Shown here: positions 19,495-28,757 of the stretch, piece after piece
Numbering within the stretch: position 1 is the stretch's first letter
Layout: every line of letters starts with the position of its first letter
Made by a program: the position numbers and the translations under genes
The notes under the pieces: generated by a model
What the model saw: the letters and a program-made list of their open reading frames with translations, nothing else
The model's database searches: none
What the model was told of the DNA's origin: nothing
Assembly: GCA_014654775.1 (NCBI GenBank)
Contig: JACVZW010000030.1
Location: 186,001 to 250,000 of the forward strand
Source: Paracoccaceae bacterium
Lineage (GTDB): Bacteria; Pseudomonadota; Alphaproteobacteria; Rhodobacterales; Rhodobacteraceae
Length of the DNA: 64,000 bases
Reading direction: 5' to 3'

Positions 19495-19947
19495 TCAGGC
19501 GTCTGGCGGGATCACGCCCTTGCGGAACATGAAGCAGCCGTAGAAGCGACGCTCGCCCGTCTGGATGACGGCGTAGGACTGCCGCGCCATATCGTAGAAG
19601 GCGAAACGTTCGATGGAGGTCATCGGGCGGGGGCGGCCTTCGGCGCGGTCGATTTCGGCCTGCACCTCCTGCTGGACCGGGGGGATTTCGGCCGGGTTGC
19701 CGACCACTTCCATCCGACCTGCGAAATCATCGACAAAGGTGTCGAGCGGCAGGACGGAGAGGATGGCCTGCACGGCCTGAGCGCAGGTGAGATTCTCCAT
19801 CCGCAGGAGTTCGCCCGTTACGGTAGCGCGGGCGACGCTGTCGGAGGGGAAGTTGGTGTCCGCCACGATCAGCACGTCGCCGTGCCCCATGGCGCGCAGC
19901 ACGCGCAGCACATCGGCGTTGAGCCGGTTGTCTATTCCCTTGAGCAT
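19495..19947 (-). CDS. RbsD/FucU-family sugar mutarotase (copy 1)
   Basis: 150 residues from ATG 19947 (MLKGIDNRLNADVLRVL). The RbsD/FucU family interconverts sugar anomers or pyranose/furanose forms. MGHGDVLIVADTNFPSD contains the conserved catalytic His region, and FYGCFMFRKGVI is the usual C-terminus of FucU-like members. It lies between the ATPase gene and the ribokinase gene. A second, clearly related copy is at 28299-28757, so the cluster carries two mutarotases. Confidence 0.9.
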   Translation of the reverse strand: MLKGIDNRLNADVLRVLRAMGHGDVLIVADTNFPSDSVARATVTGELLRMENLTCAQAVQAILSVLPLDTFVDDFAGRMEVVGNPAEIPPVQQEVQAEIDRAEGRPRPMTSIERFAFYDMARQSYAVIQTGERRFYGCFMFRKGVIPPDA

Positions 19948-20037
19948 GTGATCCTCCCTTGGCGGTGGGCCGCCCTTTTGGCTGCGCAGGCTGCCGCGCC
20001 GGGGCGGCGGGGTCAAGCGGGCCGCTTCAGGTGACCC

Positions 20038-25226: not shown

Positions 25227-25269
25227 GTTCTGATCCGGCCACCATCTGCGGACCGGTCACGGGGGCAGG

Positions 25270-25304
25270 GTGAGGCCCGCCTGCCGGAGGACAGGGGGCC
25301 TCAC
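25270..25304 (-). terminator. Intercistronic hairpin between pucA and pucC
   Basis: Stem GTGAGGCCC/GGGCCTCAC with an inner CCTG/CAGG stem. On the puc (minus) strand it lacks a T tail directly after it, so it more likely blocks 3' decay and raises pucBA over pucC mRNA, as described for puc operons. On the plus strand a TTTTTT run follows seven bases later. Confidence 0.6.
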
Positions 25305-25354
25305 GCCCGATTTTTTGCCACGCGCAAGCTGTGCAGGACCTGCGCGCGTCAGGC

Positions 25355-25666
25355 TTAGTCGAGCGCCGCCATGGTTTCGGATGTTTGCAGCACGGCGCGG
25401 GCCGTGGTGCCATCCGGCATGGTGATCAGAACCTCTTGTGACCCGCCGGGGATATAGGCCGCCTTGGCGACCCCATCTTCCGGCAGCACGAGCGCGGCAG
25501 CTGCCGAGCCCGCTCCAAGCGGTTTGCCCGAAAGGAAATCCGCCACCCATGACGTGTTGCTGAGCACCGCGACATGGACGGCGAAGGACCCGACGGCCAC
25601 GGCCGACAGGAACAGGGGGACTCCAACGGTCGGCTTGACGACAAGCCACATCTTTGCGTTGTTCAT
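25355..25666 (-). CDS. pucA: LH2 antenna alpha subunit with C-terminal extension
   Basis: Single-helix antenna polypeptide that binds bacteriochlorophyll and carotenoid in LH2. ATG 25666 follows GGGGGAT. Residues 1-47 align without gaps to Rhodobacter PucA (MNNAKMWLVVKPTVGVPLF; ligand His31; Trp40). Positions 44-45 are Phe-Leu where B800-850 complexes have Tyr-Tyr or Tyr-Trp; Phe44-Leu45 is the pair found in B800-820 (LH3) complexes. The protein is 103 residues, about 50 longer than usual; the extra tail (ALVLPEDGVAKAAYIPGG and onward) is Ala-rich then strand-like, and recalls the extended PucA2 of R. sphaeroides. Confidence 0.96.
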   Translation of the reverse strand: MNNAKMWLVVKPTVGVPLFLSAVAVGSFAVHVAVLSNTSWVADFLSGKPLGAGSAAAALVLPEDGVAKAAYIPGGSQEVLITMPDGTTARAVLQTSETMAALD

Positions 25667-25676
25667 GCTATCCCCC

Positions 25677-25832
25677 TTAGCCAAGCCAAGGCGTTGTGAC
25701 GGCGACGAGAATATGCGCGAGGAGGGCAATGGCCCCGAACACGCGTGTGCCGTCGATCAGGTAACTGTGGACTTCTTCGGCTTCTCTCAAGGTCAGACCG
25801 GTCGGCCATACCTTGTCAGGATCGTTGGACAT
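25677..25832 (-). CDS. pucB: LH2 antenna beta subunit
   Basis: 51-residue beta polypeptide, standard length. VWPTGLTLREAEEVHSYLI carries the first conserved His, and TRVFGAIALLAHILVA carries the B850-type ligand His; it ends TTPWLG as in other PucB. It lies 10 bases before pucA and is the first gene behind the PpsR boxes. It pairs with PucA in the ring-shaped LH2 complex of the photosynthetic membrane. Confidence 0.97.
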   Translation of the reverse strand: MSNDPDKVWPTGLTLREAEEVHSYLIDGTRVFGAIALLAHILVAVTTPWLG

Positions 25833-25951: not shown

Positions 25952-25995
25952 TGTCATTTTTTGCTGACATTTTCAACTGTAACAAAAAACTTACA
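25952..25995. promoter_or_regulatory. Two tandem PpsR/CrtJ boxes in the puc promoter
   Basis: TGTCATTTTTTGCTGACA (25952-25969) and TGTAACAAAAAACTTACA (25978-25995) both fit TGT-N12-ACA exactly, separated by eight bases. This is the known arrangement for cooperative binding of the aerobic photosynthesis repressor PpsR/CrtJ. They lie 120-163 bases upstream of pucB. Confidence 0.9.
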
Positions 25996-28298: not shown

Positions 28299-28757
28299 GT
28301 GTTGAAGGGGATCGACCAGAGGCTTTCAGCCGAAGTGGTGCATGTGCTGATGCTGATGGGCCATGGCGACGATCTGGTGATCTGCGACGTGAACCATCCG
28401 GCGGCCACGATCGCAGCGGAGACGACCTATGGGCGGCTGGTGGATATGGCAGGATGCGATATCCCGACGGCGGCGCGGGCGATCCTGTCGCTGATGCCGC
28501 TGGATACCTTTGTGCCCGCGCCGGTGTCGCGGATGCAGGTGGTTGGGAACCCGGACGGGGTGGTGCCGATCTTTGCGCGGATGCAAGCCGTCGTGGACGC
28601 CGCCGAGGGGCGACGGGTGGAGATGCAAGCGCTGGAGCGGTTCGCCTTCTACGCGGCGGCGAAGCAGGCCTTCGCCATCATCCGGACGGCAGATAGCGGG
28701 CCGTACGGCTGCTTCATCCTGAAAAAGGGCGTGGTGGATTTGCCGGACCTGTCCTGA
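28299..28757 (+). CDS. RbsD/FucU-family sugar mutarotase (copy 2)
   Basis: 152 residues from a GTG at 28299, one base after the permease stop. MLKGIDQRLSAEVVHVLMLM and MGHGDDLVICDVNHPA place it with the FucU/RbsD mutarotases; the ending YGCFILKKGVV matches copy 1 at 19495-19947. It equilibrates anomers of the imported sugar before kinases or dehydrogenases act. It ends the permease operon, before a set of three hairpins. Confidence 0.9.
   Translation: MLKGIDQRLSAEVVHVLMLMGHGDDLVICDVNHPAATIAAETTYGRLVDMAGCDIPTAARAILSLMPLDTFVPAPVSRMQVVGNPDGVVPIFARMQAVVDAAEGRRVEMQALERFAFYAAAKQAFAIIRTADSGPYGCFILKKGVVDLPDLS

Follow-up and report, generated by a model that had tools for sequence, protein, structure and literature searches.

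A Roseobacter-type LH2 alpha chain with Val41, Phe44 and Leu45, predicted to absorb in a single band near 805 nm

In the window, that is, the whole stretch of 64,000 nucleotides of Paracoccaceae DNA analyzed here, pucA probably encodes the alpha chain of a Roseobacter-type light-harvesting complex 2 (LH2) without hydrogen bonds to the C3-acetyl groups of its strongly coupled bacteriochlorophyll (BChl) ring, and with a single absorption peak at 803 to 808 nm. We give this reading a probability of about three in four. A first-pass annotation of the same DNA had drawn attention to Phe44-Leu45 in this chain and predicted an LH3-like antenna absorbing near 820 nm. The two residues are present, encoded at 25532-25537 on the minus strand, and neither is a hydrogen bond donor, in agreement with the loss of donors at positions 44 and 45 that had been proposed. 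Features beyond that annotation are an alpha chain about 50 residues longer, the identity of residue 41, and a repeat gene located after pucC.

The puc operon and its single LH2 pair

The features are collected in Table 1. The translated open reading frame of pucA begins MNNAKMWLVVKPTVGVPLFLSAVAVGSFAVHVAVLSNTSWVADFLSGK, and its score against the Pfam LHC family is more than twice the cut-off (49.5 bits versus 23). Residues 1 to 48 align without gaps to PucA of R. sphaeroides (7PBW chain AA) with His31 and Trp40 in register, so that the gap-free alignment described in the first-pass annotation from Met1 through these two residues was borne out over a slightly longer stretch. The LHC match, His31 at the BChl ligand position, Trp40, and the adjoining pucB and pucC identify the product as an LH2 alpha subunit. 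The minus strand carries pucB, pucA, pucC and the repeat gene in this order, and pucB, pucA, pucC and the one downstream gene are presumably cotranscribed. Phe44-Leu45 is thus real and lies in a genuine pucBAC operon.

Table 1. Features of the puc operon in the window (coordinates within the 64,000 nucleotides)
Feature	Positions	Strand	Basis or remark
pucA, LH2 alpha chain, 103 aa	25355-25666	-	PF00556, 49.5 bits; core 1-46, linker, C-terminal hairpin
Phe44-Leu45 codons	25532-25537	-	Phe44, 25535-25537; Leu45, 25532-25534
Val41 codon	25544-25546	-	position of the single hydrogen bond donor of LH3, Tyr41
PucA C-terminal part, residues 47-103	25358-25528	-	extends about 50 residues farther than R. 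sphaeroides PucA
Predicted beta-hairpin, residues 77-93, turn Asp85-Gly86	25388-25438	-	AlphaFold2 and conservation
pucB, LH2 beta chain, 51 aa	25677-25832	-	PF00556, 41.6 bits
pucC, LH2 assembly/BChl delivery protein, 488 aa	23760-25226	-	PF03209, 470.9 bits
Unnamed fourth operon gene, 209 aa	23089-23718	-	ferredoxin-like N-terminal domain followed by about two repeats of 26 residues; candidate for a gamma-like partner of LH2
Strong RNA stem-loop between pucA and pucC	25263-25308	-	folding versus shuffles
Two PpsR/CrtJ-like TGT-N12-ACA sites	25952-25969, 25978-25995		upstream of pucB
Third PpsR/CrtJ-like TGT-N12-ACA site	25814-25831		overlaps the pucB start

In the genome, which comprises 4.52 Mb on 93 contigs and is listed as 100% complete, only two LHC pairs scored above the cut-off: pufBA at C30:136938-137190 and, 74 kb from it, the pucBA pair of the window. 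A second LH2 in this genome was therefore rejected, and the suggestion that this might be the organism's only LH2 held. A single pucBA pair is also what is found with the Roseobacter-type monomodal LH2. In the accessible text of a review, single-peak antennas of AAP bacteria are described as apparently the exclusive peripheral antenna and as constitutively expressed (PMC12654162), which leaves the further suggestion of a low-light or niche antenna without support.

Among 19 genomes of the same genus, 6 carry PucA of the window type. LHC pairs number two in 6 of the genomes, one in 12 and none in 1, indicating that LH2 is patchy within the genus; the lone pair in the 12 genomes is presumably LH1. 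The genus is that of Fuscovulum ytuae, as one member (G018) contains a stretch identical to a plasmid of this species over 5000 of 5000 bases. The PucA of that member is 95% identical to the window protein, and relatives with 95 to 96% identical PucA exist. No relative of PucA was found at E 1e-5 in the plasmid collection searched.

The motif TGT-N12-ACA, the PpsR/CrtJ consensus, occurs five times in the whole window against 3.94 expected, and three of these sites start at 25814, 25952 and 25978. In the relatives, sites were counted in the 470 bases lying between 620 and 150 bases ahead of pucA, which cover the pucB start and the region upstream of it; 78 of 80 loci were used, two having no room. 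At least one site was present in 74 of the 78 and at least two in 62, compared with 4.3% and 0.15% of 1307 control stretches from the same loci. This enrichment suggests that the operon is probably under PpsR-type control. Furthermore, the gap between pucA and pucC (25227-25354) folds at -71.6 kcal/mol (z, -4.70), and none of 200 shuffles folded as well; such a stem-loop would be expected if pucBA must outnumber pucC.

The operon is situated between sugar ABC transporter genes on the opposite strand, a binding protein (to 22989) and permeases (from 26274). At 19495-20016 and 28299-28757, flanking the transporter region, are two genes that we presume, by eye, to encode FucU/RbsD-like mutarotases. 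Among 18 genus genomes that have the binding protein, five of them left unassigned by the flanks covered, the binding protein and permease genes are separated by about 100 to 115 bases in 4 (G004, G006, G013 and G014) and by about 1.1 kb with other DNA in 5. In G014, LH2 is on another contig than this closely spaced pair. The 1.1-kb inserts were recognized by open frames in L196 (Abi-like by eye), L200 and L207 and by spacing only in L208 and L209. The junction looks like an insertion hotspot.

Residue 41 and the predicted absorption band

Across nine LH2 structures, two C3-acetyl bonds go with a band at about 850 nm, one with about 825 nm, and none with about 800 nm, according to the available text of PMC9618040. 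LH3 of Rbl. acidophilus 7050 (1IJD) retains one acetyl bond, with alpha-Tyr41 as the donor (PMC9618040, Table 1; PMC9897067; both as accessible in part). Its PDB chain reads Y41-A-A-F44-L45, and the window protein reads V41-A42-D43-F44-L45. No known acetyl donor is left in the window PucA, because Val41 replaces Tyr41 next to Phe44 and Leu45. As none of these three residues can donate a hydrogen bond, the B850 band should move onto the B800 band and give one peak at about 803 to 808 nm rather than at 850 or 820 nm. Membership in LH3 as defined by 1IJD was accordingly rejected: the non-donors at 44 and 45 are present, but Tyr41 is missing. The best PDB match to the window PucA is 7ZE3 (E, 1.4e-14), which reads V41-A42-K43-F44-M45. 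This is the PucD-LH2 of Rps. palustris, described in the accessible text as having a single band at 803 nm and no hydrogen bonds (PMC9618040); that text once gives Met44/Phe45 for PucD, but Phe44 and Met45 appear in its figure legend and in the PDB chain.

The peripheral antenna of R. denitrificans absorbs at 806 nm. We examined three genomes with two LHC pairs each, one of them pucBA: one taken as R. denitrificans OCh 114 (G412; identical to plasmid pTB1, with matching coordinates, over 2000 of 2000 bases), one taken as D. shibae DFL 12 (G053; identical to pDSHI01 over 2000 of 2000 bases) and one taken as R. litoralis (G415; puf genes at the coordinates of pRLO149_94, with chromosome length as a further guide). 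In all three, PucA reads V41-S-D-F44-L45 and has a long tail, and the window PucA carries the same combination of V41-F44-L45 and hairpin tail that marks the Roseobacter-type monomodal LH2. The peripheral bands listed for these species are at 804 nm in D. shibae and 806 nm in R. litoralis, with R. denitrificans placed in the same single-peak group, and the F44L45 motif is named for this group (PMC12654162); the spectra are those quoted in the accessible part of this review, not in the original papers. The link between F44L45 and a single band near 800 nm is thus already in print for the Roseobacter group, as far as that part of the review goes. A spectrum of this organism or of any near relative did not come up in our literature search.

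These observations bear on the earlier forecast of a B800-820 antenna, according to which loss of the bonds at 44 and 45 would by itself place the band at 820 to 826 nm. The 1IJD complex, a B800-820 antenna, does have Phe44-Leu45, and an R. sphaeroides double mutant with Phe-Leu in place of Tyr44/Tyr45 is B800-826, with a shift of 24 nm at 77 K (PMC9618040, accessible text). Nevertheless, we regard a true LH3-like complex as unlikely, because the Tyr41 bond of 1IJD is impossible with Val41 and the bands listed for species that share both V41-F44-L45 and this tail are single peaks at 804 to 806 nm. The blue shift that was forecast is therefore supported by comparison with these species, whereas the peak at about 820 nm and the LH3-like label are probably wrong. 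The accompanying statement that LH3 complexes have exactly Phe-Leu applies to 1IJD but not to 9DWZ, a second PDB chain bearing the name B-800/820, in which Phe41, Phe44 and Gln45 are found. With Phe41 in 9DWZ, Tyr41 is not the sole route to 820 nm.

The double mutant deserves attention in its own right, as Leu41 and Ser27 are present in it (PMC9618040, accessible text). Ser27 is also kept in the window PucA and its relatives. Since the mutant absorbs at 826 nm without a Tyr41 donor and with Ser27, more than residues 41, 44 and 45 must separate 826 nm from about 805 nm. Candidates for the difference are Val versus Leu at position 41, Asp43, Ser46, the beta chain and the tail. With the same Phe-Leu pair, the band lies at 820, 826 or about 805 nm, according to context.

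We consider it very improbable that the complex is an ordinary B800-850 antenna whose acetyl groups are bound by residues elsewhere, for instance in the beta chain or the C-terminal tail. Beta-chain donors do have a precedent in the beta-Trp of Phs. molischianum and Mch. purpuratum (PMC9618040, accessible text), and the conserved tail of PucA should share a side of the membrane complex with the B850 ring. However, the species absorbing at 804 to 806 nm have the same residues and the same tail, and no B800-850 species carrying V41-F44-L45 came up in the literature surveyed. The single band near 805 nm thus remains our preferred prediction.

The residues on which this prediction rests are common among the relatives. 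Hairpin-tailed chains, a class assigned by sequence pattern, make up 106 of 128 distinct PucA sequences collected by likeness to the window protein, so that the proportions describe its lineage and not all LH2. Val41 with Phe44-Leu45 is found in 96 of the 106; the remainder have Phe41 with Phe-Ala (5), Tyr41 with Tyr-Leu (4) or Val41 with Tyr-Leu (1). The other 22 sequences are mixed at residues 44 and 45 (YY, YH, YW, FF, FI, FL and others). At the level of loci, where the best 80 of 230 were kept, 77 have Phe-Leu (71), Tyr-Leu (4) or Phe-Ala (2), and the other three have Phe-Ala; Val41 is present in 73 of 78 aligned sequences. Judged from this conservation, the Phe-Leu motif is not due to chance and is usual in the lineage. 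Natural variants also occur in cultured strains, Y41-Y44-L45 in Thetidibacter halocola KMU-90 (L076) and V41-Y44-L45 in Tateyamaria pelophila DSM 17270 (L084). The hydrogen bond rule of PMC9618040 could thus be tested in existing strains.

The hairpin tail and the repeat gene after pucC

The window PucA is about 50 residues longer than the 54-residue PucA of R. sphaeroides. The end of this tail is conserved around MPDGT, with Asp85 and Gly86 in all 78 aligned sequences. From this alignment, AlphaFold2 predicts strands at residues 77-82 and 88-93; the block at 81-90 has a pLDDT of 79 in an otherwise weak model (mean pLDDT, 62.3; pTM, 0.24). Pooled dN/dS over 101 non-independent pairs is 0.026 in the core, compared with 0.23 in residues 47-75 and 0.13 in residues 76-96. 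Given the conserved end and the latter two values, the protein maintains its tail. Other LH2 alpha chains with C-terminal extensions have been described, as polyproline/polyalanine in Rhodopseudomonas and, with an apparent role in assembly, in Rubrivivax (PMC5069747, accessible text). A literature search limited to titles and the starts of abstracts, with most subscription papers outside its reach, returned no report on a PucA hairpin.

The repeat gene starts after a gap of 41 bases downstream of pucC. Its 209-residue product matched nothing in Pfam or NCBIfam at E 1, and in the PDB nothing scored better than E 0.41; Pfam searches with the R. denitrificans and D. shibae proteins returned nothing beyond one match at E 0.18. 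AlphaFold2 builds a firm domain at residues 1-110 (block pLDDT, 88 to 98) and leaves the remainder without confident structure. Foldseek listed 721 matches to the model at E 10 and none at E 0.001 or better, and the N-terminal domain weakly resembles proteins of the ACT, CutA and PII types (best E, 0.24); only a general ferredoxin-like class was therefore assigned. The C-terminal half repeats at an offset of 26 residues, with a self-identity of 0.163 against a shuffle maximum of 0.084 (51 relatives, 200 runs). The unit can be written as S-A/V-I-R-G-G-x-x-M-S-x-x-F-W-P-M-P-L-L-S.

Length varies among the homologs. The protein has 349 residues and eight repeats in both Roseobacter species (in R. 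denitrificans, eight units of 25 residues, such as PRHARMANFPIPLLSKRKP), 228 residues in D. shibae, and 209 residues with about two repeats in the window. A pattern count over 20 long forms gave eight units in 17, of which 16 are evenly spaced by 25 residues, nine units in 1 and a 15-residue spacing in 2. By eye, the relatives at L097, L101 and L111 carry units about 15 residues long that are rich in His, such as VPGHKFMAKFPFGHI; in length these come near the units of the Rps. palustris gamma chain, which have 16 residues.

The gene is closely associated with the hairpin-tailed LH2. In a draw of 394 family genomes, it is present in 44 of 44 with a hairpin-tailed PucA and in 3 of 12 with another or unreadable PucA (one, G313, weak). 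Of the 338 genomes that lack a PucA match, 3 have it (weak partial matches in G076 and G373, a split one in G143). It starts 1.8 to 2.0 kb after the pucA start, directly after pucC, in 82 of 93 hairpin-tailed loci, a set that includes some genomes twice. In the other 11, a profile finds it in 6, L049 and L088 have no room, and 3 are without a match. L070, L080 and L084 have a complete pucBAC and more than 5 kb downstream with no match to the profile at the locus, which speaks against an obligatory partnership; the last of these is T. pelophila, in which no repeat gene follows pucC. In G523, an alphaproteobacterium outside the family with a long PucA, no repeat gene was found in the 4.2 kb from pucC to the contig end. 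Thus, a protein without a Pfam, NCBIfam or PDB match accompanies the hairpin-tailed LH2 in every one of the 44 family genomes sampled that have it.

We know of no LH2 partner of a comparable style other than the gamma ribbon of Rps. palustris. In that ribbon, on the cytoplasmic side, a Ser in each repeat binds an extra BChl, and in the accessible text it is reported from Rhodopseudomonas only (PMC9618040). The window gene shares with it the layout of short tandem repeats in an LH2-linked protein, the repeats lacking a confident structure and most units offering a polar residue as a candidate ligand. Homology of the two was rejected, since phmmer searches of the PDB at E 10 with the window protein and two relatives gave no gamma match.

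By analogy with this ribbon, the antenna might be a three-component LH2, in which the repeat protein would form a cytoplasmic-side ribbon holding extra 800-nm BChls through Ser or His, and the hairpin would be a second lineage-specific part. We offer this as a speculative proposal. It would mean that part of the Roseobacter High-800 band comes from an unrecognized partner, and the long form, with its eight units of 25 residues and a further half unit at the C terminus, could span a ring of nine members; the alpha-chain hairpin would help explain why Phe-Leu gives 826 nm in R. sphaeroides and about 805 nm here. If the repeat protein does sit on the ring, it would be an unrecognized part of a well-studied marine antenna, including that of R. 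denitrificans.

The chances are about even that the repeat protein instead serves in assembly or regulation, acting through the ferredoxin-like domain at its N terminus, with the repeats as a tether. The well-defined N-terminal 110 residues with their weak ACT, CutA and PII likeness, the adjoining pucC, itself an assembly gene, and the three pucBAC loci that lack a repeat gene after pucC are in line with such a role, as is the variation in repeat number, about two in some organisms and eight or more in others that have the same type of PucA. This role fits less well with the regularity of the long forms, most of which have eight evenly spaced units, or with the selection on the repeats: their dN/dS is 0 to 0.18 in six pairs from four genus genomes, and purifying selection is as strong as or stronger than on the N-terminal domain in four of these pairs (one equal to two decimals) and weaker in two. 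A literature search of titles and the starts of abstracts found no report on the repeat protein.

Comparison with known antenna systems

The B800-850 LH2 of R. sphaeroides (7PBW) shares with the window PucA the gap-free region 1-48 together with His31, Trp40 and Ser27, but it has Tyr44-Tyr45 and Leu41, and the hairpin tail is absent. A genome whose PucA equals that of 7PBW over residues 1-48 (G069) contained nothing that matched the repeat gene. LH3 of Rbl. acidophilus 7050 (1IJD) has Phe44-Leu45 in common with the window and differs in its Tyr41 acetyl bond, its low-light expression and a 53-residue chain without the hairpin tail.

PucD-LH2 (7ZE3) resembles the window PucA in having Val41, Phe44 and no donor at 45. 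It differs in its 59-residue alpha chain without a hairpin tail and in being one of several LH2 types in Rps. palustris. It also carries the gamma ribbon 7ZCU_S, which has no sequence match to the window repeat gene. Like the window repeat protein, this 97-residue chain is LH2-linked and has short tandem units that carry a Pro-Leu-Ile/Leu stretch and, for the most part, a Ser or His; unlike the window family, it has a period of 16 residues rather than 25 to 26 (about 15 in three relatives) and no N-terminal domain.

The most similar systems are the monomodal LH2 complexes of R. denitrificans, R. litoralis and D. shibae, known as LH4, High-800 or B800-806. They have the same V41-F44-L45 residues and the same long tail with a PDG turn, and in each of these species, as in the window, there is one pucBA pair and the order pucA, pucC, repeat gene. 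Both Roseobacter species differ in having the long repeat gene of 349 residues, in contrast to the short form of 209 residues in the window.
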